From Serendipita indica DSM 11827 (lineage: Eukaryota; Basidiomycota; Agaricomycetes; Sebacinales; Serendipitaceae): DNA of 64,000 nt. The notes under the pieces are model-generated. The model was not told where the DNA came from and made no database searches. It saw only the letters and a list, made by a program, of their open reading frames with translations. This document shows positions 13,342-33,086 of the stretch, one piece after another. The stretch lies in the NCBI GenBank assembly GCA_910890315.1, contig CAJVGD010000012.1:620001-684000 (forward strand). Reading direction: 5' to 3'. A program made the translations under genes and the position numbers. Positions within the stretch are counted from its first letter, which is position 1. Each line of letters begins with the position of its first letter.

Positions 13342-16300
13342 CTACGATCCATCTCCGAAGCGGCTGGATTTCCATGCTACGCATAGTAGACAGGTGATAG
13401 GGAACATGCTTGCACGCCCACACCTTTCCCAGTTACTGGCCTGAAATCGCCACCACCATCTGATAATGGGGATAAACGGAAGAGCACAGACGAAATACGC
13501 GATTGGGGAATCGAGGTATCGGAGATATTGCTTTAAAACGATGCGTTTGAGAAGTTGCTTCGACTTCAGGGTATGAGGATGGTCTTTACCAAAGACCTGA
13601 GCGCGTAATTCCATAGTCTCCTGCAGCAGCTTTGCGGCTTCGTCAATTTTTTGAAATTCATACAATGTCAAGGAGAGATTGTATGAAGCTTCGAGAGTTT
13701 TTGGGTGCCGCTGTCCAAAGATATCCCGCCGCAAGGCAAGTAGCGCTCGCTCACTCTGTTCAGCCTCCTGCAACTGAAGACACTTGTACCAAATACTCTC
13801 GATGTCGCTCGTTATCACAGTAGCGTATTGGCCCCTGTTGCGATTGATATATTGCCGTAGAGCGACAACTTCTTGCTTTACCTCTTCTGCCTTGTCCAAC
13901 TGACCAGAGCTCCGTAACACGTTGCCAAGTTGGCCAATCAACCACATTGAGAGTGGGTCCGTTTTACCATAGCTCTGCTGACTTTGGGAAAGGAGAGGCT
14001 CTAAGAGCTCTTGGCAGGCCGCCCAGTCACCCACACTATGGTAAAGCCAGTAGAAGTTCAATGCATGTGAGCTAATCTCCAACTGAACCGAGCGAGGGAT
14101 TTTGTTGGCGTGCGGAAGCAATTGCCAATGCAGCACATTACTACCATCCGACGGCGGTCGAATAGCACCGAGTATTAGTTGGATCGTCATGCGTGCATAG
14201 CGTTGACTCTCCTCTTTACCAATGCAGTCCTTGATGTACATCTGAAGAAGAGGATGGACGGTGTAGAATAGTCCATCAATCGAAACGTCTACGAATGACG
14301 CACGGGATGCAGGGTCGACGATCTCTTGGAATTCAACCTCATCCCAAGCTCTGCCTAGAATCTTCTGAAGGGCTGAGATAACCGGTTGGTCACACTCTGG
14401 AGGAAGACTATTCTCCATATTTTTCTCCGTCCTGTATCCGGACTTCATTGACTGCCTAAATAAAGCAATCGGTATAAGGGAATAGTGGAGGAATGCGCAA
14501 ATCTTGAGAAAATCTTGTGACTTTGCTGGCAAGCCGTGGAATGACAGATCGAAGGCGGTATATATCGAGTATGTGTACTCGTTGCCGATATCGGGCTGTT
14601 TGCGCAGAAGCTGATCTCGGTGCTTCTGGAGCGACTCAAGATACGTGTCGACCCGCCGCGTCTTGCGAATGTATACTCCCGCTTGGGTGATCGCGAGTGC
14701 TAGCAACCCCAACTCGCGGACGATCTCGATAGATCCGGCGTCGGACGTAGGCGAGACATTGGCAATTTTATGAAGAAGATCCACTGCTTCTTTCTCCTCA
14801 AGACCGCCAACAGGAATTGCGCCATCCGGAGCGTAGCCGACGCATTCGGTATTCCTTGTTGTAATCAAAATAGACCCATGAGCAGTAGTGGGTAGGTATG
14901 GATGGAGGTTGAGGTCTGATGAGTCGGCATTGTCGATGAACAGCAACCAGCCTTTTTCCTTGCAATCAAGGTAGGCGACTGTATCCTGCCAAGTCATCTT
15001 GCTATACTCTCGGCCCAAGGAGCGAGCGAATTGTTCCAGGTCTGCTTCGATTTGCGGTTGGCTAGAGGCATCGACAAAAATCACCCGAGTAAAGCTAGCG
15101 AGGGTCAGAGCTATTCTGACGTTTACATAGTTCATACCTAGATTCATGCTCCCGAATCCAGTTCGTTGCCAGTTGAGTTTTGCCGGACCCCCCGATCCCA
15201 TATAACACACACCGTGCTTGGTGTTTCACGGAACCGTCTGGACGCAGCTTCTGTGTGATGAACGAGTGAATCTTCTTTCGCTCAATGTAGCTTCTTGACA
15301 CTGGTGGGCATGGCTTTGGCATTATGAGCTTCAGAGAAACAGGCTCTCGCTTCGCCGCGCCTATATCTTATCAGCCGAGCATAGGAAATGAAGTGACTAC
15401 TAACTACGACAGCTGTCCTCTGTGATCCACTTTTCCTGCACCGCAGCAGACGCGCTGTCGACATAGTCCTTGAGGTGATGATGAACCGTCTTATAGTTGT
15501 CGTCCTCCTTGGATGCAAAGCGAACTAAATCGCGGTGATTCGCATGAAGGGTGATTGTCGTCGCGTTGCGGTCGCCAGGTATAGTGGCCGAGTGATATGA
15601 GACATTCTATCACTCATTCAATATACAATTCCGGATTGAAGATCCACTCACCAAGTCTTCTCGATTCCCAATACCAGATGTCGCATATTCCGCGCAGAAG
15701 AAGATACTACTGATATTTTCGCTCGCCGCGAGGTACAGACTTTGTATGTTCTCGAGCTCAGCTGAGTTGGGTTGAAGATCCTTGAGGACGATGTCTGTCG
15801 TTTCCATGTACGCCGATGCCAGACGATTGATTGCTTCAAGGACGCTCGTGCTATCGAGACCAGAGTGCGGTGTCCCAAAGAATAGGATTGCATGTGTGGA
15901 AACGAGAACGTCACGGAGGTCCCCCTTGGACGTCAAACTCTGATTGTGGCAGATAACGAGAGCCTATGCGAGCATCAGCAGTTGGTTCTAGTCGTGCTTT
16001 CAATGGTACGAACCCATTTGAGAATGATACCTCCTAGGTCGTGCGCAACAAAAACGATGGGACGCTAGTCACGTTTAGGGAGAGACCAACCACCAAGGAG
16101 AGTTACTTACGCGAGGAGCGTCTTTCCGTTCACGTGAGAGTGCCTGTGCTAGCGCTTTGGCATGCCGACGCATTGTCAGGGTTGATACGCATTCTTTACT
16201 GCGGGTGTCGGCGTCATAACCGTACGTGAGGATTCGGGCGTTTGGTATATCGGTAGGCAAGAGGTCACGTAGCCACGAGATTGCGTCATCTGATGTCCAC

Positions 16301-16585
16301 GTCTTCTCTCTATGTCCTTGCAGGCCGTGGATGGCAACGATACTGGCAAATCCGGGGTGGGTGAGTGGTGAGCACATGCAACGGGCAGGGTGCTTACTCG
16401 GCAACAGGATCAGTTCCAGAGTAGATTTCCAGGAGCCCGAGATTACATTTCTTTGATTGGGGTGTTTTGATTACAGCTCCGTGATTCTTGGGGTTTGCCT
16501 GTGTGGACTGTTCCGTATTCTGCAACGAGGACTGGGAGGGACGTAGGAGATTCGTCAAGCGCAAACGGGCCTGAAGAAGCATCAT
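13342..16585 (-). CDS. NLR protein: alpha/beta-hydrolase + NB-ARC + short TPR (NLR1)
   Basis: Seven exons (16585-16398, 16342-16111, 16064-16014, 15963-15652, 15606-15405, 15360-15138, 15094-13342) give 986 residues in unbroken phase. An N-terminal SesB/PGAP1-like hydrolase domain (IVAIHGLQGH near 64, AHDLGG near 147, FFGTPHSG near 186) precedes an NB-ARC ATPase: P-loop GIGGSGKTQLA near 385, Walker B WLLFIDNADS near 450, ILITTRN. A winged-helix-like stretch and only about three degenerate TPRs (LGQRHP-type become FGQRHP, FGKDHP) follow. The tail has a hydrophobic segment (YFVCALPFIPII) and a tryptophan-rich end, unlike its paralogue. NLRs of this kind act in fungal heterokaryon incompatibility or innate immunity. 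The hydrolase nucleophile position is Asp, not Ser. Confidence 0.9.
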
Positions 16586-19966: not shown

Positions 19967-22900
19967 TTATTGTGAAATAATGGACTCCAGCAGCTCTTTT
20001 GAGTCCACAGTACAACGATGATCCGCACCCAAGACTTCAACGCGTAGTTCCATGGTGTCTTGAAGGAGCCTTGCAGCTTCGTTGAGTTGATTATTCATGC
20101 ATAATATGATAGAGAGGTTGTATGAGGCATTGAGAGTTGTTGGATGCCGCGGACCGAGAGTCTCCAGCCGCAGAGCAAGGACGTCCTGCTCAATCCTTCC
20201 TGCCTCGTCCAACTGACCACGATCAGACAAGGTGAAGGCAAGGTTGCCCATTGCCGAAATGGTATCTGGATGGCGCTGACCGAGGATGTCGAGCCGCAGA
20301 GCGAGTACCTCTCGCTCAATCTTCTCTGTTTCGTCCAACTGACCACGCTGGTTCAAGGTGACGGCAAGGTTGGCCATTGCCGAAATGGTATCCGGATGGC
20401 GCTGTCCAAGGATGTCGAGCTGCAGAGCAAGTACCTCTCGCCTCATCTTCTCTGCTTCGTCCAACTGACCACGCTGGTTCAAGGTGACGGCAAGGTTGGC
20501 CATTGCCGAAATGGTATCTGGATGGCGCTGTCCAAGGATGTCGAGCCGCAGAGTGAGTACCTCTCGCATCATCTTCTCTGTTTCGTCCAACTGACCACGC
20601 TGGTTCAAGGTGACGGCAAGGTTGGCCATTGCCGAAATGGTATCCGGATGGCGCTGTCCAAGGATGTCGAGCTGCAGAGCGAGTACCTCTCGCCTCATCT
20701 TCTCTGCTTCGTCCAACTGACCACGCTGGTTCAAGGTGTTGGCAAGGTTGGCCATTGCCAAAATGGTATGTGGATGGCGCTGTCCAAGGATGTCAAGCTG
20801 CAGAGCGAGTACCTCTTGCCTCATTTTCTCTGCTTCGTCCAACTGGCCACGCTGGCTCAAGGTGACAGCAAGGTTGGCCATTGCCGAAATGGTATCCGGA
20901 TGACGCTGTCCAAGGATGTCGAGCTGCAGAGCGAGTACCTCTCGCCTCATCTTCTCTGCTTCGTCCAACTGACCACGCTGGTTCAAGGTGACAGCAAGGT
21001 TGGCCATTGCCAAAATGGTATCTGGATGGCGCTGTCCAAGGATGTCGAGCCGCAGAGCGAGTACCTCTCGCCTCATCTTCTCTGCTTCGTCCAACTGACC
21101 ACGCTGGTTCAAGGTGATGGCAAGGTTGCTCATTGCCCGAATGGTATCTGGATGGCGCTGTCCAAGGATGTCGAGCTGCAGAGCAAGTACCTCTCGCCTC
21201 ATCTTCTCTGCTTCGTCCAACTGACCACGCTGGTTCAAGGTGACAGCAAGGTTGGCCATTGCCCGAATGGTATCTGGATGGCGCTGTCCAAGGATGTCAA
21301 GCTGCAGAGCGAGTACCTCTCGCCTCATCTTCTCTGCTTCGTCCAACTGACCACGCTGGTTCAAGGTGTTGGCAAGGTTGCCCATTGCTGAAATGGTATG
21401 TGGATGGCGCTGTCCAAGGATGTCGAGCTGCAGAGCGAGTACCTCTCGCTGAATCTTCTCTGCTTTGTCCAACTGACCACGCTGGTTCAAGGTGACAGCA
21501 AGGTTGGCCATTGCCGAAATGGTATGTGGATGGCGCTGTCCAAGGATGTCAAGCTGCAGAGCGAGTACCTCTCGCTGAATCTTCTCTGCTTCGTCCAACT
21601 GACCACGCTGGTTCAAGGTGACGGCAAGGTTGGCCATTGCCGAAATGGTATCTGGATGGCGCTGTCCAAGGATGTCGAGCCGCAGAGCGAGTACCTCTCG
21701 CTGAATCTTCTCTGCTTCGTCCAACTGACCACGCTGGTTCAAGGTGATGGCAAGGTTGCCCATTGCCGAAATGGTATGTGGATGGCGCTGTCCAAGGATG
21801 TCGAGCTGCAGAGCGAGTACCTCTCGCCTCATTTTCTCTGCTTCGTCCAACTGACCACGCTGGTTCAAGGTGACAGCAAGGTTGGCCATTGCCGAAATGG
21901 TATCTGGATGGCGCTGTCCAAGGATGTCGAGCCGCAGAGCGAGTACCTCTCGCTGAATCTTCTCTGTTTCGTCCAACTGACCACGCTGGTTCAAGGTGAC
22001 AGCAAGGTTGGCCATTGCCAAAATGGTATGTGGATGGCGCTGTCCAAGGATGTCAAGCTGCAGAGCGAGTACCTCTCGCATCATCTTCTCTGCTTCGTCC
22101 AACTGACCACGCTGGTTCAAGGTGATGGCAAGGCTGCCCATTGACGAAATGGTATGTGGATGGCGCTGTCCAAGGATGTCGAGCTGCAGAGCGAATACCT
22201 CTCGCATCATCTTCTCTGCTTCGTCCAACTGACCACGCTGGTTCAAGGTGATGGCAAGGTTGGCCATTGCCGAAATGGTATCTGGATGGCGCTGTCCAAG
22301 GATGTCAAGCTGCAGAGCGAGTACCTCTCGCCTCATCTTCTCTGCCTCGTCCAACTGACCACGCTGGTTCAAGGTGACGGCAAGGTTGCCCATTGCCGAA
22401 ATGGTATGTGGATGGCACTGTCCAAGGATGTCGAGCCGCAGAGTGAGTACCTCTCGCCTCATCTTCTCTGCTTCGTCCAACTGACCACGCTGGTTCAAGG
22501 TGATGGCAAGGTTGCCCATTGCCAAAATGGTATCTGGATGGCGCTGTCCAAGAATGTCGAGCTGCAGAGCGAGTACCTCTCGCTCAATCTTTTCTGCTTC
22601 TTCCGACTGACCACACTTCTCTAACATGTCCCCAAGCGCGACCATCACCCATATTGAGCTTTTGTGCCGTTGACCGTGACGCTGCTGGACTTTGGAGAGT
22701 GCACATTTTAGCAGTTCTTGGCAAGCCCTCCAGCCACCCAACGAGTTGTAAAGCTTGCAGAAGGCTAATGCATGTGCCACATCCTCCGATTGCACTGACC
22801 GAGGAATATTGTTAGCATGTGGAAGCAATTGCCAAAGCCGCCCATTGCTACCCTCCAACGGCCGGATTGCCCCCAGTACGAGTTGGGTCGCCGTGCGCGC

Positions 22901-25281
22901 ATAGTGTCGATTATCTTCATCGTTAAGATAATCCTTGATGTACATCTGAAGGAGTGGATGCACGGTGTAGAATAACCCATCGTTCGAAACATTGATAAAT
23001 GACGCTTGAGATGCCGAGTCAATGATCTCCTGGAATGCGACCTCGTTCCACGCCGTGCCTAGAATCTCCTGGAGCGTTGAGATAAATGTTTTGTCAGACT
23101 CTCGGGGAGGAAAGTCATTCAAAACAGTGTATGTAGTAAAGCTGGACTCTATCGAGTGCTCAAACAATGAAATCGGGATGAGCGAATGGTGAAGAAACGC
23201 GCAAATCTTCAGGAAGTCTTGTGTCTTCGCCGGCAAATTGTGGAACGACAGGTCGAATGCGGTGTATGTCGACGATGTATACTCGTTGCCGAAATCTGGC
23301 TGCTTGCGCAGGAGTTCGTCTCGGTGCTTTCGAAACGTGTTCACATACGTTTCGAGTCGCCGTGTCTTGCGAATGTACACTCCTGCTTGAGTGATCGCGA
23401 GCGCCAGCATCCCCAACTCCTGAACGATCTCGATAGACTTGGTGTTGGATGTAGGCGAGGCATTGGCGAGTTTGTGAAGCAGATTGACCGCCTCGTTTTC
23501 CTCGAGATCACCAACAGCAACAGCCCCATCTGGAGCGTAGCTTATGCACTCGCTATTCCTCGTGGTGATCAAAATAAACCCGTGAATGGAAGCGGGAAGA
23601 TATGGGCCAAGGTCGAGGTTTGGAGAGTCGGCATTGTCGATGAATAGTAACCAGCCTCTTTCCTTGCCGTCGAGGTAGGCAATTGCATCCTTCCACCCCA
23701 TCGCTCTGTACTCCGGGCCCAAGGAGCGAATAAATTGCTCCAAGTCTGCTTCAATTTGCGTCTGACTGGAGGCGTCGACAAAAATCACTCGAGTAAACCT
23801 AGTAAAGATGAGACAATTCCAAGCATTTCTATCGTTCGTACCTGGCTTCGTTCTCTCCAATCCAGTTCGTTGCTAGTTGAGTCTTACCTGACCCTCCGAT
23901 TCCATGTAATATACACCTTGGTTGACGTTGCACCTGACCACCCGAGAGCAACTTCTGCGTGATGAGGGACTGGACTGCCTCTCGCTTGATGTAGCTCCTT
24001 GATACGGATGGACGAGGTTTAGGCAGTATGTCCTCTGGAGGAGCATATTCTTCATTTGCTACAGCTATGCTTTGATCAGCTAAAGACAGCGGGGTAGACT
24101 GGTTACAAACTGCGAAGCTTGTCCTCTATTGCCCACTTCTCCTGCACTGCCAGGGGGGCATTGTCGACGTACCCCTTGAGGCGATGATGAACCGTTTTAT
24201 AGTTTTCGTCATCTTTGGATGAAAATCGAACCATGTTGCGGTGATTCGCATGAAGCACGATCGGCGTCCCGTTGCGGTCACCGGAGATAGTGGCTGAGTG
24301 ATATGGAACATTCTATTTTTCGTTTAGTATTGGATTCGTGATTGGGAATCCACTCACCAGTTCTCCACGATTTCCAATACCTGATGTCGCATACTCCGCA
24401 CAAAAGAAGATGCTGTTGATCTTCTCGCTCACCGCGACGTACAGACTCTGAATGTTCTCGAGTTCAGCCGAGTTGGATCGAAGATCCTTGATGATATTGT
24501 CGGTAGTCTCCATGTATACCGACGCCAAGAGGTTGATTCCTTCAAGAATGTTTGTATTTTCGAGGCCGGAGTGCGGGGTTCCAAAGAATAAGATTCCATG
24601 CGTGGATACGGCCACGTCACGAAGGCTACTCTTGGATGTCAAACTCTCATTATGGCAAATGACGAGAGCCTACGAAAGGGTCAGCAGCTGGGTTTTGGTG
24701 GCTCCCGTATTACGAACCCATTTGAGAATGATACCTCCTAGATCATGGGCAACGAAAATGATCGGACGCTAATCACTTGTTCAAAGGAGGCCAATCGGCA
24801 AGAATTGTTTCCCTTACTCGAGCGTCCTTGCGTATCCGTGAGAGTGCCTGGGCTAGCTTCTCGGCATGTCGACGCATCGTCTGGGTTGATACGCATTCTC
24901 GACTGCGAGTGTCGGCGTCGTATCCATAGAGAAGGACTCGAGCGTTGGGTATGTCGGTACGCAAGAGGTCACGTAGCCACAAGTCTCCGTCTTCTGTCGT
25001 CCATGTCTTCTCTCTATGTCCTTGCAGACCATGAATAGCGACGATACTGGCGGGAAAGCTAGGTGAGCGGCGAGCACGTGTAATAGCTGGGGTACTTGCT
25101 CGACGACAGGGTCAGTTCCAGACAGGACTTCTAGGAATCCGAAATGATCCGTCTTCGATTCGGTCTTCGAAGCCGAAGGCCTGCTACTCTGGGAATCCAG
25201 AGGTGTGGATTGGGCGTCGCTGTGCGACAATGATTGGGAGAGACGTAGGGTGTCCAACGAGGACAAGCGAGCATCCGACAT
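19967..25281 (-). CDS. NLR protein: alpha/beta-hydrolase + NB-ARC + about 20 near-identical TPRs (NLR2)
   Basis: Seven exons matching NLR1 exon for exon (25281-25100, 25046-24818, 24768-24718, 24669-24358, 24312-24111, 24064-23842, 23798-19967) give 1676 residues. The N-terminal hydrolase (IVAIHGLQGH, AHDLGG, FFGTPHSG) and NB-ARC (GIGGSGKTQLA near 380, WLLFIDNADS, ILITTRN) parallel NLR1. From about residue 780 to the end lies an array of about 20 TPR units of 42 residues, most within a few residues of one consensus containing LDILGQRHP and NLAVTLNQRGQ. Intron 1 has a GC donor (GCAAGT) where NLR1 has GT. Such NLRs are STAND switches; the repeats would bind the trigger and keep the ATPase inactive. 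Recent repeat expansion and homogenisation are evident. Confidence 0.93.
20140..22640. repeat. 126 bp tandem repeats encoding TPRs (about 20 units)
   Basis: In-frame 126 bp period within the last exon of NLR2. Units differ at few codons. The same period leaves the opposite strand open over most of its length, which is a shadow and not a gene. Confidence 0.9.
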
Positions 25282-25663: not shown

Positions 25664-26490
25664 ATGTCTGACACGGAAATGCAAATGTAAAGCCTTAATG
25701 GTTAGTATTTCTGGAGTAACCAAGACCATTGTAGGGACACAACGGAGGGACATCGCGAGGTCGAACACGAGGAGAGCATTGAGCACCACGTATCACCCTC
25801 ACGGAAGACGCGGCCACAATTAACCCGCCCCTGTATTTCTTCGACCCAAAGAAAAGGGTCCCCACTATTGATCTTAATACTGTCTCTCGATTGCTCGAAG
25901 CGGCCAGGAAGTACGACGTAGAGAGGATATTAGACTGGGTGGAGGAGGAAGCGGTGAAAATACCCCCGGATGCCATAGTCCGCAACCCGTTACAATTAAT
26001 AGTTCTTAGCTACCACCTCAAGCTTCCGGCAGTTGCCAAAGTGGCACTACGAGCTTTGACCGCTGCCCCTTATAGCCAGCCCGACCCCGATATTATGATT
26101 GACGACCGACTCTTCACACTTGTCCTTGAGCGTCGAGGCATGGGCGTTAGAGAGCTTCAAAAGTTGTTTCTAGAACGATTACTATCCTCAGGTAATGATC
26201 CCCGTTTTTGGCAGCGTGATAAGATCCTCCAAGCCATGGATAAGATCGATAATGAACCTAGTTAGCGTTCCTATGCAGAAATGGAGAATATCGCAGGACC
26301 CCCAAAGTCTTCTCTGGCCATAGCTCCTGCTTTTTTCAGACAGCCTACTGCTGGCGACGGCGAGTCCAGAGGAATCGAGGATTTCGTCAGTGAGTTGCCA
26401 GACTGGTTCCCTCGACGGTGGATAATATTGAATGCATTAACTTCTCGCTGGTGCCCGTATCCAGCCTATTCCTACGATGTTACTATTTGA
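25664..26490 (+). pseudogene. BTB/POZ pseudogene (copy 4)
   Basis: ATGTCTGACACGG at 25664 looks like a family start, but the first half of the BTB fold (GYGDF, SPVFKDMF) is missing. From 25783 the family resumes: ITLTEDAATI, YFFDPKKR, SRLLEAARKYDVERILDW, LPAVAKVALRALTAAP, DNEPS. A TAG at 26263-26265 stands where relatives have Trp (EPSW), and the same frame continues beyond it to FVSELPDWFP. A lost 5' portion plus an in-frame stop make this a broken copy. It lies between NLR2 and NLR3. Confidence 0.65.
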
Positions 26491-26674
26491 ACCACTCACG
26501 CCCGATCTGTACCTTGTTCCGACTGCGATTTCTTACCAATAGATTGTGGAAAGCTGTGAGAATTAACTATTGTATATGATAGTATTAAACTTACGCACAA
26601 CAAAAAGGAGAGGCAAGTATCCCCGTCGAATTGAGGGTGGTGGATTGGACTTTGGATTTTCGACCATTATCTTC

Positions 26675-26960
26675 ATGGCTGATCGTCCAAGAGTCAAAGA
26701 CATCAAAGAGAAGCACTGTACTAACAATAAAGTATAGAGGGTACGGTACTTCATCTACTTTACCCGAAACTGAGTTATTCGATCCTAATAGTCTCATCTC
26801 GAATAAAGAAGAGGCATTGGAGAGAATAGATTTGTTTTTCAACCGAGTTCTACCACGAATTGATTGTATTATATACAAACACGAGCGCAGACCTATGGCC
26901 TGTAGCCTGGAAGATATGAGAATTGCGCTTCGGGATTGGATGTGGTCACTACGCCAAGGA
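26675..26960 (+). CDS. Doubtful small gene
   Basis: A possible two-exon frame (26675-26731 and from 26775) reading MADRPRVKDIKEK and then a charged helical stretch (NKEEALERIDLFFNRV, SLEDMRIALRDWMW). The joint has GT-AG ends and keeps phase, but the 3' end is unresolved and would run toward the NLR3 stop on the other strand. I recognise no family. It could equally be chance or NLR3 downstream sequence. Confidence 0.25.
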
Positions 26961-27009
26961 GTGAGAGTTAGTACGAGTCTGATGGATTTCCTAGTACACT
27001 TCATGCTCT

Positions 27010-30000
27010 CTAAAGGTTATTCTTTATCATTCCACCCTCTCTCACACGCGTCCAGTACGCTCCATGGACAAAGGCAGACGTGTCCACCGTCATTCGGTGA
27101 CATGGGCCAATGATCCGAACACCTGGTCGTTCAAGGCCAGAACGACAATGAGGCGGAACCCAGAAAAGTATCTCTCCTTCGGATCCAAACAGCCATCCAT
27201 CTTCGTCAATCCCACAGTAGCAACTAGGGACAACATCCGTCTATGCAAATCAGCATTACAACGGATTGGATGTGTATAGGTACTCACCAAGTGTTCGTCA
27301 GTTACGTTCCATAGCCGTACTGTCTGGTCAGACGAGCCAGAGATGATTTGGTGACCATCTGGCGAGAATGTGACCGAGCAGACCGAGGCGTTATGTCCTT
27401 GTAGTGGCATTCCTATCTGTAAACCTGTCTCTACATCCCAAAGCCGTATTGTATCGTCCTCCGAGCCAGAAACAATCCGACGACCATCCGGCGAGAATGC
27501 AACCGAGGTAACACCAAAGGCGTGTCCTTCAAGAGGAGTTCCTATTTGTATGCCCCCGTTCACATCCCAAAATCGCAGAGTCTTATCATCTGAACAAGAA
27601 ACGATTCGATGGCCGTCTGGCGAGAACGCGACTGATTTGACCCTTTTAGTGTGTCCTTCGAGTGGCACACCTATCCGTGTCCCCGTTTCCGCGTCCCAAA
27701 ATCGTACCGTCTTGTCCTGTGACCCGGAAACAATTCGGCAACCATCTGGCGAGAAAACGACTGAGGTGACGCGTTCAATATGCCCTTCAATTGCAACTCC
27801 TATCTGAGTACCCATCTTCACGTCCCATATCCGCACGGTTTGGTCATCCGAGCCAGACACAATTCGGTGCCCATCTGGTGAGAATGCAACCGCGATGACT
27901 GGGTCGGTGTGTCCCTCAAGCGGTGTTCCTATCCCTCTACCCGTATCAACACTCCATATTCGCACCGTGCAATCGTCCGAGCCAGAAGCGATCAAGTAAC
28001 CATCTGGCGAGCATGCGACCGAGTTGACACCGCCGGTATGTCCATGAAATGGAATTCCTATCTGCATGCCCGTGTTCATGTCCCAGATCCGCACGGTCTT
28101 GTCGTCCGAGCCAGAAACAATTTGGCAATGATTTGGCAAGATTGCGATGGAGCTGACGCCACTAGTATGGCCTTCAAGTGGCCCTCCGATTTGTATATCT
28201 GTCTCAACTGACCATAGCTTCAGTGTGGCATCATCCGAACCAGAAACAATTTGGCGACCGTCTGGTGAGAATGCAACCGAGGTGATGCAACCGCTGTGTC
28301 CTTCAAGCGGCTGTCCTATTTGCCTGCCTGTTTCCACATCCCAAACTTGTACCATCTGGCTGAATGAACCAGAAACGATCCGGTGACCATCTGGCGAGAA
28401 TCCGACTGAGAGAACGGCACCGGCGTATCCTTCAAGCGGAATTCCTATCTGCATCCCTGTGTTCGCATCCCATATCTGTATGGTCTTGTCATCTGAGCCA
28501 GAGGCAATTCGGCGACCATCTGGCGAGATCGCGACCGAGTGGACGTAGTCGGTATGCCCTACAATCGGCTCTCCTATCTGCATACCCGTTTCTACATTCC
28601 ATATCCGCAACGTTTTGTCATTTGAGCCAGAAATGATTCGATGACCATCTGGAAAGAATGCTACCGAATTGACCGCGTCAGTATGACCTTGAAGCGGTAA
28701 TCCGATCTGGCCACCCGTATCTGCATCCCACAACCGTATTGTCCTGTCTCCGGAGCCAGAAATAATTTGGCGGCCATCTGGCGAGAATGCGACCGATTTG
28801 ACACGGTCGGCATGTCCTTCAAATGGAATTCCTATCTGTGTACCCATCTTCATGTCCCATACTCTTATAGTCTTGTCGTCCGAGCCAGAAACAACTCGAT
28901 CACCACCTGGGGAGAATGCGACAGAACTGACGAAACTGGTGTGTCCTTCAAGCGGGGTTTCTATCTGTATGCCCGTCTTTACATCCCATCGGCGCACAGT
29001 TCCGTCATGAGAGCCAGAAACAACGTAATGGCCATCCGGAGAAAAGGCCACAGTACTTACACCACTATTATGCCCGCTGACAGTGTTACGGAGTGGGGAC
29101 CACCTTTGATAACCTCCTGCCGTGACTAGTAGTGTCTTTGGATACTGAGATTCGTAGAGCCTCCTAACTGCTGAAGATGGTGGGGAGAGTGGTAGCGCAG
29201 AGATGTAAATGTGGGAAGCGCTCTCTGCTATGATATCGAGGAAATGAGCAACAAACTGCTGCATATCAGTTGCAAGTGGTATCAAATCGTCGCCGTTGTT
29301 AGCCTACAAATGGGTCATCGAGTAGATAATGAGATAAAAGGTATGCTTACTTTCAGCCATATATTTAGTACAAATATTAGAGGTGGCACGTCGTACACAA
29401 AGTGGCATAAACTTGCGACTTCGAGCCAGGCAAGAAACTGAACCTTGAGAATATATCGAACAAGAGACAGGGTCTCCTCACTTGCCGGTGTATGTTCTAG
29501 ATGATCTACCCAATAGGACGACGCATACACTAAATGGGAGGGAATGCACGCGTCGATAGTTGATTCTAAGACGTCTTCGTTGAGTATATGAGATGAGGGA
29601 ATTCCACAGATGTTGAATTGTAGTTTTTCCTTCATGATGCATAGGGATCGATCCGCGAGGATTTGGTGGCAGTTGCTTGTCGTCAGGCATGGTGCCAAAT
29701 ATGTTGTATCCGGATCTAAAAGATGATCCACAAAAGACTGGTGGCGAAAACGAAGGGTCCCCTCGATTTCTAACACAGGTCGTAGTGCATTGCACACATG
29801 CTCGACCGTCCATTCATCCATCCCAAGGAGTTCCGCAAGCATCGGCAGATGAAACGGCTCATAAGAGACGATGATGGCAGCGAGGATCGTACGCACTTCC
29901 CGTAACAGATCGCTTCGCGCGTCTGGAAAGGCAGCATGAAGTACAGTAGTGTAGAGTGCCTTCATCCCGGCGGTGCCCTCCCCTCGTACTATTTCCTCTA

Positions 30001-31628
30001 AAAGCTTCTTTGGATTACCACGGCGGATATATTCCACCACCGTCGATGCCCAGATGAACAATCCGTTGGCCTTGATCGCCAACGTCCTGATGGTCGCTTC
30101 CCCCGGCCATTCAGCAGAGGGTGTAGAGTATCTGCCGGCAATTTCCCCAGCTCCTCACTCAGGTATGCCTGAATGTCTCGCGTGGATTGAATGGCTGTCT
30201 CGTCTCCAACGAGAAGGTCGATCGTGTATGGAGGGTTCAGAGCGAAATTTCTCGCTATGTCATCTTCCTCACGACTGGTGACAATCAGCTTGCAATGGGA
30301 AAGCTGAGACCATAGCGCCAGAGTCTCGATCAAATCCCGACGCTCCTCGGAATTCGCACCTTCCAGGCCTCCACACTCATCCAATGCGTCGACCACAATC
30401 ACAGGTGACTGGTCGCTAGAAATGCTGCCAACCCTCAATAATGGCTCTTCGATCAACTGATGAAAGAATTCGCCGATGTTCGGGGTCGTCAAGTCAATAT
30501 GGCCTTTCTTGATCTTTGCAGCCAGGTGCTTTCGGATGGTAGGGTGCCTCGCAAGATCATGCGCGACGTTCCGCCATAACGCTCTCGTCGTTGTGACAGT
30601 GCTTTCCTGACGACGAAAGAAGAAGCTTGATCCAAGGCGCTGTTTGTGGATTCCGAGAAGGCGGACTAGACTAGACGCGATGGCTGATTTTCCCGCTCCC
30701 GGTGCGGCTTTGATCCACAAGATGTTCGGTGCATTGGGGCTGCAGACCCAAGATGTACATTGCTCGAGTATCTCCGTACGTGTCCCTACTTGACATTCTC
30801 GCGGACGTGTGTACTCTTTGCATTTGAGTTGGCTCAATACGTCTGCATCTGCCGATGCGTTGACAGATATGGTGACATAGACAATGAGAGAACCCTGTAT
30901 TAAACGTCAAATAGGGTTGCCGGAGCATATGTCTCATATTGACCATTATTCTCGATTCTGCGTCTTTCAAGCGTTTCTCGTAGCCTGCAATAACGCCAGC
31001 CTCTAGCTTTGTGGTAGCTATCTGCTGAGCCAATCGCTTGAAAGTAAGGCCTTTGTCAAATTCGGACTCTTCGAGGCCCGAATCGATGCAAATGCTGGCA
31101 ATCAGCTCTTTGAGAATGCTGTTCAAGATGAGTTTGCATCGATTTGAGGTTGATAAACATACTCAAAGTAGTCACTAATTGGACCTTTTATAGAATCTTC
31201 GTACTCTTCAAGAATGTCATTGATACCTAGTTGCGCCAACTGCCGTCGAAACGTCGTTGTATGCTCTTGGACAGTCCTCAACAGCTCGGACCAGGCGTAT
31301 TCGTTGGATTTCACAGCCTCGAACAATTCAGCATACTAATGGGAGTTTGTCTTAGAACCCCTACCTGGATCGAATCGAGGAGGGTAACCACGGCCTCGCA
31401 GGCGCCTTTGAGCGGCGCAAACTCAACAGCGTCTGCAATACTTTTGGTCACACTGAGCATTAGGGATGCTCGAGCGAGCCATCTATCCATTCTAGATCCT
31501 CGTGACGACTCCACAGGTGCCGAGCCGCCTTGCTGGGCGTCTGTCGAAGGCCCCATAGGCGTTGAGGGTAGGTTTTGGCTGTTTCCATCTTTCTTGCGTC
31601 TCTTTGCTAGTCTATTTGACTTTCTCAT
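27010..31628 (-). CDS. NLR protein: helical N-domain + NACHT + 14 WD40 repeats (NLR3)
   Basis: Resolved exons: 31628-31365, 31335-31163, 31118 to about 30935, about 30850-29351, 29303-27288 and 27240-27010. The N-terminus is basic then helical (MRKSNRLAKRRKK; LMLSVTKSIADAVEF). The NACHT ATPase has P-loop APGAGKSAIASS, Walker B VIVVDALDECGG and sensor LIVTSREEDD, then a helical linker (GLFIWASTVVEYI). Fourteen WD40 repeats follow, each like GHTDxVxSVAFSPDG..IVSGSDDKTVRIWD: two seven-blade propellers. The last exon supplies the usual cap (ILFWVPPH, FVHGAYW). One base appears missing near 30111-30125, shifting frame after GKLPAD. The first intron would be only 29 bp unless an upstream donor (56 bp) is used, and the junction near 30850-30935 is unresolved. 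Role: NWD-type incompatibility/immune receptor. Confidence 0.85.
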
Positions 31629-32165
31629 CGTATCTTTGCACGAGACGTGGTTGAGGTGGAGGTCTGAGCTGAGCCGTTCTGGATTCTACTCACGGCATGT
31701 CAAACTTGTTCAACGAGTGCCATCGATCAAAATTGCGTCCTAGTTGTCTTCGACTATCACGAGGGATGAAAAGTAGTCATAGCTGACTGCCCAAAGAGGC
31801 CAAAGGTCGCTTGATCGAGCTGCAACCAAAACCGCTCAGACACGACACCCTGTCTTAGTAAATTTAGTTCAGATACCGCGAGTCTATTCAATTTGTCGAC
31901 ACTGACACATCCAATCCCGTATTTGAGGATGATTTGCGCTGCTTGTGGATTGAGGCATAATAGCAGCATGATGTGCCTCGTGTCCGCTTGGCGAAGGTTT
32001 TCTAATTACCAATGAGTATATTGTAATCCAGATAATCCACACCATGCATTCTTTTGGCCTCTCTCGCAGCCCTTTAAACGAGTGGAAGCTTCTCGAGTGG
32101 ATCACCAACCGAAAATATGCTTATATATAGCTCCAATCCTCTCTCGTGATCGTTCTCGGATTTCC
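31629..32165. other. Divergent spacer, NLR3 / BTB copy 5
   Basis: Contains a 70-codon minus-strand ORF (31757-31969) without motifs, taken as chance. A TATATATAG at 32121-32130 belongs to the BTB gene on the right. Confidence 0.45.
32121..32130 (+). promoter_or_regulatory. TATA box of BTB copy 5
   Basis: TTATATATAG about 36 bp upstream of the ATG at 32166. Confidence 0.45.
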
Positions 32166-33086
32166 ATGTCCAGCGTTACGGCCCCCAAGCGACGCCCTTC
32201 GAAGCTATTTCCCCCAGGCTACGGCGACATCAAGCTCATTACGAGCGACGACATCGTCTTTAGCTTCCCTCGCTATCTCCTTTCACATTGCTCCTCGGTG
32301 TTCATGGACATGCTTGCCCTCGGGGAATCGGACCAGGAGAATCCGGAGGTCACCGTGACTGAGGACTCCACCACAATGGATGCAGTTCTACGTTTCCTGG
32401 ATCCAGAAAAGGACATTCTTCCTCTCAACCCACATTCTGCACCCAAGATTCTCGAGGCTGCTCACAAATATCAACTACCTCGGATTATGAAGTGGTGGGC
32501 GCAAGAGGTCACAGCAGGACCGGAGCTAGAGAACCCAATGCAGTGCCTTGCACTCGCAGAGCTGTATGGGATTAGGGGTGTAGCAAAGCTCGCATTACGA
32601 GCTCTCGTAATCGCACCAGTGGCGGAGTTGGAGATCAACCTCTCATTTCTCGGCAAATCGTTCAGCGAGCTTATAAAGCTCAGATCAGAAAGAATTGCCA
32701 AACTGCATGAAGTGGCCAACGAGCTTGCGACGACCATCGTCCACTCACTCCTGGCGTCGACCTTTAATATTCCGGAGCAGAAAAAGTCGGCGCCAGAAGT
32801 CTCGATGTTGGCGAGAGCCGGGAGCATTGTTTCCAAGCGCTTCTCCCAATCTGCTTCTGGTCGACAAGAGGACAAGGCGCTCAAGGAGCACCTCTACCTG
32901 CAGGGTTCGTTGACGAACCTGACACAGTGGACGACAAATTTGATGGCATCAATCTCTGTGGAACCGAGTTGGAAGGCGATCCTGCGAGAGATTTGTCTCT
33001 TGGAGGCATATAGTCTTGACAAACACCTCAGTCGAACGACGGTGCGCCAGCTCGCAAACCGTGTAGCCAAGTTAGAGAATGTTTAA
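32166..33086 (+). CDS. BTB/POZ domain protein (copy 5)
   Basis: Intact single exon, 306 residues from ATG 32166 (the in-frame codons before it contain the TATA box). Landmarks: LFPPGYGDIKLITSDDIVFSF, CSSVFMDMLALG, VTEDSTTMDAVLRFLDPEKD, ILEAAHKYQLPRIMKWW, and IRGVAKLALRALV. The second half is helical with a low-complexity segment (SKRFSQSASGRQEDK) and the EPSWKAIL block, but the usual LPELPxWW end is replaced by RQLANRVAKLENV. It is the same family as copies 1, 2 and 6; probably a ubiquitin-ligase adaptor or transcription-related BTB protein. Confidence 0.85.
   Translation: MSSVTAPKRRPSKLFPPGYGDIKLITSDDIVFSFPRYLLSHCSSVFMDMLALGESDQENPEVTVTEDSTTMDAVLRFLDPEKDILPLNPHSAPKILEAAHKYQLPRIMKWWAQEVTAGPELENPMQCLALAELYGIRGVAKLALRALVIAPVAELEINLSFLGKSFSELIKLRSERIAKLHEVANELATTIVHSLLASTFNIPEQKKSAPEVSMLARAGSIVSKRFSQSASGRQEDKALKEHLYLQGSLTNLTQWTTNLMASISVEPSWKAILREICLLEAYSLDKHLSRTTVRQLANRVAKLENV

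Follow-up and report, generated by a model that had tools for sequence, protein, structure and literature searches.

Near-identical repeats are an established feature of fungal NLR receptors. Passages of Dyrka et al. 2014 (PMC4986451) report high internal conservation for 21.2% of the TPR repeats in fungal NLRs, in ascomycetes and basidiomycetes alike, and describe repeat-number polymorphism at 8 of 8 Podospora loci with variable sites on the concave face. They also mention a protein of Penicillium chrysogenum that has 21 TPR motifs and list P. indica DSM 11827 in one table. In Podospora, the HNWD genes (het-d, het-e and het-r) resemble the locus described here in that they combine near-identical repeats, few variable codons and exchange between alleles and paralogues, as outlined in parts of PMC12222747 and PMC12881547. 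In Neurospora, PLP-1 is an NB-ARC-TPR receptor with a patatin domain, for which death on an incompatible SEC-9 variant is described (passages of PMC12881547).

For basidiomycetes, somatic incompatibility is described as still poorly understood (in part of PMC8229728). The domains expanded in the genome of Serendipita indica include NB-ARC, NACHT and TPR_4, according to passages of PMC3192844.

A SesB-like, NB-ARC and TPR receptor gene

The window, meaning the whole 64,000-nucleotide stretch of S. indica DSM 11827 DNA analysed here, contains an NLR gene with a long TPR array, and a paralogue beside it. The features of the two genes are:

19967 to 25281, minus strand: NLR gene with the order DUF676/SesB-like, NB-ARC, TPR; putative ATG at 25281; exons 2 to 7 open when spliced
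24818 to 25057, minus strand: exon 2, 5' border approximate (spliced reading)
24718 to 24768, minus strand: exon 3, carrying the nucleophile-elbow motif AHDLGG (spliced reading)
24358 to 24669, minus strand: exon 4 (spliced reading)
24111 to 24312, minus strand: exon 5 (spliced reading)
23842 to 24079, minus strand: exon 6, with the P-loop GIGGSGKT (spliced reading)
19967 to 23798, minus strand: exon 7, the last, with the remaining NB-ARC, a linker and the TPR array (open reading frame and splicing)
24502 to 25045, minus strand: DUF676 match (putative serine esterase, SesB-like), split by introns; Pfam 21.7 bits, cut-off 20.3
23426 to 23963, minus strand: NB-ARC match, split by one intron; Pfam 30.9 bits, cut-off 23.5
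13345 to 16470, minus strand: neighbouring NLR paralogue, 74% identical in nucleotides over 2.6 kb on the N-terminal/NB-ARC side

Once spliced, exons 2 to 7 give 1624 residues and a stop in an uninterrupted frame, and the minus-strand open reading frame from 23872 to 19967 (1301 codons) contains the TPR array and the end of the NB-ARC domain. The DUF676 and NB-ARC coordinates are back-calculated from protein residues and exon borders. The nucleotide-binding domain is identified by an NB-ARC match above the Pfam cut-off and by its P-loop. At the N-terminus, the DUF676 match clears its cut-off narrowly (21.7 against 20.3 bits) and indicates a SesB-like hydrolase, DUF676 being what we take to be the equivalent of the SesB-like alpha/beta-hydrolase.

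The nucleophile elbow of this domain reads AHDLGG, placing Asp where an esterase has the Ser of H-S-L-G-G. Across 10 distinct loci with the elbow pattern, the residue is Asp in 8, Asn in 1 (L020) and Ser in 1 (L013). The pattern is found in the window at 24718-24768 and near 16055, and in L009-L013, L017, L018 and L020. Epoxide hydrolases use an Asp nucleophile. Judged from sequence, the AHDLGG hydrolase is possibly either a dead esterase or an Asp-nucleophile enzyme.

The neighbouring paralogue has a few diverged TPR units without an array, and 1 of its units passes the repeat scan. A search of the genome (24.7 Mb, 55 contigs) with the NB-ARC side of the window NLR yields nothing else at allelic distance; the three closest copies are 95-96% identical. 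A control stretch of 8 kb from the window occurs once in the genome. One exon of the phosphate transporter gene of this genome agrees with PDB 7SP5, the phosphate transporter PiPT of S. indica, at 191 of 192 aligned residues, the first being the mismatch, which points to that fungus. An Rfam scan of the window gives 0 matches, a 5.8S search of the genome gives none, and positions 26000-31000, read in one frame, are assigned to no family. By eye, minus-strand frames at 27090-31162 contain a P-loop and are NACHT-like, followed by WD40-type units of 129 bp with 69-71% matches; this stretch may be an NWD-type receptor without high internal conservation, lying beside the TPR receptor. Two plus-strand frames that appear BTB-like by eye, at 25783-26265 and 32016-33086, flank the window NLRs and parallel a BTB gene near the NLR cluster on contig C24.

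Twenty-one TPR units in the last exon

TRF detects a repeat at 20196-22614 with a period of 126, 19.2 copies, 93% matches, 0% indels and a score of 4099. Read in frame on the minus strand from 22615 to 19970, the array consists of 21 consecutive 42-residue units without gap or frameshift:

20222 to 22615, minus strand: 19 near-identical 42-residue TPR units, units 1 to 19 (TRF, in-frame reading, TPR_10)
19970 to 20221, minus strand: two degenerate C-terminal units, unit 20 diverged and unit 21 strongly so (in-frame reading)

The initial annotation had described an in-frame repeat of 126 bp and 42 residues, present about 20 times in the last NLR exon. This is confirmed, with 19 near-identical units, 21 in total, and the exon at 23798-19967. 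The array is likewise real within the span claimed for it, 20140-22640, but its limits are corrected to a start at 22615 and an end, worn units included, at 19970.

The inner units (2-19, n=18) have a mean identity of 87.9% in amino acids and 93.2% in nucleotides, and all 18 are distinct at the nucleotide level. The near-identical units together span 798 residues, which places the array in the class of high internal conservation described for fungal NLRs (over 85% identity across at least 100 residues). Variable residues in units 2-19 are 10 (M/I), 11 (R/Q/M/E), 18 (Q/R), 28 (D/H), 31 (S/L/R), 34 (A/G/S) and 38 (V/I/N/F), which are the few fixed positions already named in the initial annotation.

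TPR_10 (PF13374) matches 21 stretches of the array with 671 bits, far above chance. A structure model of units 12-21, which uses the array itself in shifted registers as its basis, contains two helices per unit, near residues 4-21 and 27-42. The best model has a mean pLDDT of 85.1 and a pTM of 0.63; the other four have pLDDT values from 80 to 47. In a Foldseek search with the model, O-GlcNAc transferase and kinesin light chain lead by E-value, while 4Y6C and 4Y6W, at E-value ranks 40 and 37, give TM values of 0.88 and 0.87 (by target length) and an rmsd of 2.2-2.4. The PF13374 match, the model and 4Y6C thus identify the 42-residue, two-helix unit as TPR_10-class, a class with a solved fold.

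Sharing of units and loss of unit order

Units of the same type occur in three sister arrays: A (C24, 21 units, one frameshifted), B (C24, 14 units) and B' (C12:292k, 9 units). The repeat scan in which the sister arrays were counted gives 20 units for the window array (W). No pair among W, A, B and B' has a fixed difference, and each pair has 10-20 polymorphic sites in common. Between W and A the unit difference is 7.1%, as compared to 6.8 and 6.5% within W and within A, and a label test between these two arrays detects a small between-locus excess (p 0.01). The label tests for W/B, W/B', A/B and B/B' detect a small excess as well (p 0.006 or less). Units are indistinguishable between loci (p 0.31-0.82) for A/B' and for the paralogue pairs on C5, at C12:228k/173k and on C10; recent duplication contributes to the likeness of paralogue pairs. 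Two more distant arrays are clearly distinct from W, with 17 and 21 excess differences per unit. Given the label tests and these distant arrays, units are alike only within arrays and small groups of close loci, and not across the family.

The flanks of W and A are about 2% apart: 2.2% over 1.5 kb, 1.5% downstream and 3.7% in the 300 bp adjoining the array. Between these arrays no unit order is kept in runs of three, four or five units (50, 77 and 124 of 200 shuffles are as good), and the best five-unit run has 30 differences against a shuffled mean of 29.8. The C5 and C12 pairs retain some five-unit order (4 and 10 of 200 shuffles), which argues against full scrambling there. Within W, adjacent units are no more alike than other units (p 0.29); adjacent units are more alike at p <0.05 in 2 of 13 arrays, C10_325k and C50_84k.

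Of 105 site pairs in W, 45 have all four gametes; in A the count is 49 of 66. In both arrays r2 drops with distance within the unit (9 and 0 of 2000 permutations, respectively, reach the observed drop), and in B the drop is less marked (66 of 2000). The 0 fixed differences, the four gametes, the decay of r2 and the lost unit order support the earlier proposal that the units are homogenised, mixed and matched.

In the array at C10:360k (L019:1719-3609), seven successive units recur, by eye, eight units away, and a distance of 8 has the lowest mean unit difference. This higher-order repeat is a sign of recent unequal exchange.

Amino-acid change on the helix-A face

Published ligand positions and a helical wheel served to place the variable residues on a face. 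An article relevant here is "Sequence variation in ligand binding sites in proteins", whose authors we take to be Magliery and Regan. Ligand positions in the TPR are given as 2, 5, 9, 12, 13, 33 and 34 in the part of PMC1261162 drawn on here. The concave set tested comprises the five helix-A positions, TPR 2, 5, 9, 12 and 13; the variable sites were already known when the published list was checked, but the set itself was not tuned to them. Using the L7-G/A8 and A20 landmarks, these positions correspond to unit residues 31, 34, 38, 41 and 42.

Values of pN and pS are pairwise counts between units within arrays of one genome. The 13 arrays counted are not independent, because several are close duplicates. 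One or both end units were dropped from each array, with further end units in L012, L017, L019 and L020. Also dropped were one frameshifted unit (L009) and one that lacks a residue (L020), while L019 units beside one-base offsets were retained. Outside the counts lie the second arrays in L010, L011, L016 and L017 and at least the following: C11:989k, C19:61k, C31:7k, C50:98k, C10:346k, C10:352k, C10:1075k, C12:181k, C12:760k, C12:1239k and C12:1245k.

Pooled over the 13 arrays, the concave set accounts for 50% of the nonsynonymous as against 18% of the synonymous difference, and 0 of 100000 random five-position sets reach 50% of the nonsynonymous difference. In W alone the shares are 42% (reached by 101 of 100000 random sets) and 9.5%. 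Within the concave set, 12 of 13 arrays have a pN higher than pS, one of them barely (0.282/0.278), the exception being B; outside it pN is below pS in 12 of 13, the exception being A. The diversity of helix A is restricted to a single face (permutation p 0.0009), at 131 degrees to the hydrophobic moment, and in helix B no preferred face emerges (p 0.40). The next strongest variable sites are 11, 18 and 28; the first two are in helix B and are among the most variable, yet fall outside the a priori concave set.

The suggestion of a rapidly changing recognition surface therefore stands in part: it fits the ligand-type face of helix A, but not the strong helix-B sites 11 and 18. The comparison of dN/dS between units proposed with it, run as pairwise pN/pS, is similarly divided. 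In W the ratio is above 1 solely in the concave set (0.220/0.070), and over the whole array it is 0.73.

This pattern could also be read as neutral repeat dynamics, in which 126-bp units recombine often and the concave residues are merely less constrained, without diversifying selection. Such a reading is in keeping with an overall pN/pS below 1 in 10 of 13 arrays, W included, and with raised pS at the concave codons, where 18% of the synonymous change falls in 12% of codons (37% of it in A and 35% in B'). It sits less easily with the pN excess that 12 of the 13 arrays show at the concave codons while most other positions hardly vary, and with the concentration of high-identity fungal arrays in NLRs described in passages of PMC4986451. 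Neutral dynamics without selection on the concave face are considered rather unlikely.

A sister locus assembled in two copies

Contig C24 (39.7 kb) aligns to C12:270.0-293.2k over 23 kb, and its far end matches C12:265.3-267.5k at 99%; the comparison leaves out 2.5 kb between the two aligned stretches. Sixteen 1-kb blocks (C24 17-22k and 25-34k) contain 51 mismatches, or 3.2 per kb (about 0.3%), a count that stands apart from the four blocks at C24 13-16k, which cover the NB-ARC and hydrolase part of the NLR and have 7-20 mismatches each. The published 25-Mb S. indica genome is described as most likely that of a heterokaryon, with 2.6 SNPs per kb (passages of PMC3192844). Because 3.2 mismatches per kb is close to this value, and because C26 matches C17:229-239k at 99% over 9.9 kb, C24 is perhaps the version of the other nucleus. 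The small contig C55, unlike C24 and C26, has only 84-88% matches. On sequence comparison, then, C24 and C12:265-293k may be versions of one locus in two nuclei; a segmental duplication or assembly redundancy is a possible alternative.

The unit number at this locus is 14 on C24 (B) and 9 on C12 (B'), in copies that are perhaps allelic, and the extra NLR (A) is found only in C24. From the array outward, mismatches between B and B' per 100 bp are 15, 8, 5, 2 and then 0-1 upstream, and 14, 22, 11, 6 and then 0-2 downstream, with 3-8 again at 0.9-1.2 kb. Informative flank sites group A+W against B+B' by 40 to 9 to 5 upstream and by 38 to 1 to 0 downstream; upstream, 32 of the 40 sites with the A+W grouping lie in the outermost 400 alignment columns. 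Directly beside the array, B is the outlier among A, W, B and B'.

The C5 pair was considered as a case of array-cassette conversion (30% difference on the NB-ARC side against 1.7% beside the array) and was rejected. Homology there stops about 1.05 kb upstream, with about 60 mismatches per 100 beyond, so that the pair represents a duplication break and not a conversion tract. The C10 pair has a divergent inner island about 1.0-1.2 kb upstream with 0-2 mismatches per 100 beyond, and the two C12 loci differ by 3% for 1.1 kb upstream and then by 10-36 per 100. The mosaic evidence that remains is B/B' and, less clearly, the two C12 loci.

A BTB gene in the same region, at L021:4674-5606 (C24:23174-24106) and C12:280.7-281.5k, has a C-terminal half in two deeply diverged versions. 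Over C24:23.6-24.3k the copies are 68% identical in nucleotides, with sharp borders and with surroundings about 0.3% different. In this part pS is 0.66 and pN is 0.29; in the first 110 codons they are 0.013 and 0.020. A DNA search finds no third copy of the C-terminal part. The split looks like an old balanced polymorphism or an introgression near the NLR cluster.

A speculative proposal, and on present evidence a doubtful one, is that C12/C24 is a nonself-recognition cluster in a living heterokaryon, with array cassettes moving between alleles and paralogues, and that the BTB gene and the NLRs form a basidiomycete allorecognition locus. The two nuclei would then share about 28 kb at about 0.3%, broken by the NLR block and the split BTB gene; the array and 300-400 bp on each side would have been swapped, and one whole NLR would be present in one version and absent from the other.

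Unit number and order could, in principle, reflect collapsed or mis-joined reads. The assembly does contain irregularities of this kind, namely the frameshifted unit in A, one-base offsets between units of the C10:360k array, and 43 one-base deletions in the C12 copy relative to C24 over 23 kb. Against an artefact, W keeps its reading frame through 882 codons, no two of its 18 inner units are identical, and nonsynonymous differences fall on few codons, unlike random error. An assembly origin for the array pattern is very unlikely.

A model for recognition

The reading we regard as probable is that the window gene encodes a basidiomycete STAND/NLR whose TPR array is homogenised and shuffled, changes on its ligand face, and reads a polymorphic ligand. 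The receptor would be cytoplasmic, with an open superhelix of about 21 TPR-like 42-mers as its sensor. Recombination, both inside the array and among a few close paralogues, would keep the units alike while shuffling them, and amino-acid change would concentrate on the helix-A positions that bind ligand in other TPR proteins; both steps are supported by the tests above. The array may read a polymorphic peptide or protein ligand, with shuffling altering its specificity. Binding would then release oligomerisation of the NB-ARC, as in NLRs in general, and this would activate the N-terminal alpha/beta-hydrolase-type domain, leading to defence or cell death.

PLP-1 and SEC-9 provide a precedent, and a polymorphic cell protein is therefore a reasonable guess for the ligand. 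The trigger could be a protein of another individual (allorecognition) or of a microbe, and both stand. That the array is instead a structural spacer or scaffold is the least likely of the explanations weighed here: long TPR solenoids do act as scaffolds in other proteins, but a spacer is not expected to focus amino-acid change on one helix face.

The genome carries at least 12 such arrays, several as close paralogue pairs. With many arrays and apparently two nuclear versions of one locus in a single genome, the turnover of a recognition surface can be measured without sampling a population. In the window family, no unit order is left even though the flanks are only about 2% apart.

Comparison with described receptors

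In prokaryotes, a scan yields 8 loci with best segments 29-49% identical, the first two having tandem 126-bp arrays with a 79% match. These two are from a Synergistes MAG of water-buffalo abomasum (L055 and L056), whose TPR arrays have 5-6 copies; TPR_10/TPR_12 is shown for L056. Such arrays have the repeat class in common with the window array and are not its close kin. The kinesin light chain TPR domain (6SWU, 3EDT and others) has the repeat length and fold of the window array. Its TPR units are few and diverged, and its cargo function is known. The nearly identical TPR-like repeats of Podospora anserina in 4Y6C/4Y6W are likewise built of 42-residue units (phmmer E 4e-23 for 4Y6W), but differ in consensus and organism and are 26-27% identical in the structural alignment. 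The HNWD receptors are HET-NACHT-WD40 proteins, in contrast to the DUF676-NB-ARC-TPR order of the window NLR, and an incompatibility role is demonstrated for HNWD and not for the window NLR.

The initial annotation had found it notable that the array is of TPR rather than WD40 type. This claim to novelty fails, because such arrays, their length polymorphism and their concave-face variation were published in 2014, in passages that include Podospora TPR NLRs, one of them sesB-like/NB-ARC/TPR (PMC4986451), and because a Podospora array has been solved (4Y6C/4Y6W). Among the matches listed from open-licence PMC, as titles and abstract openings, there is no dedicated paper on such arrays in S. indica or in basidiomycetes. 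The passages of Dyrka et al. 2014 drawn on here contain neither a loss of unit order between arrays whose flanks are about 2% apart nor a comparison like the apparent one between two nuclei.

The closest described system is the Podospora sesB-like/NB-ARC/TPR receptor, which, in those passages (PMC4986451), shares with the window NLR its domain order, near-identical TPR units and concave-face variation. The Podospora locus varies from 2 to >15 units, as compared to 14 and 9 at the sister locus here. The window NLR differs from these receptors, as described there, in the Asp of its elbow and in two helix-B sites that vary outside the a priori concave set. Where the 2014 passages deal with wild isolates of ascomycetes, the present comparison uses paralogues and two assembled copies within one genome, and carries a mechanism established in ascomycetes over to a basidiomycete that lives in symbiosis with roots.
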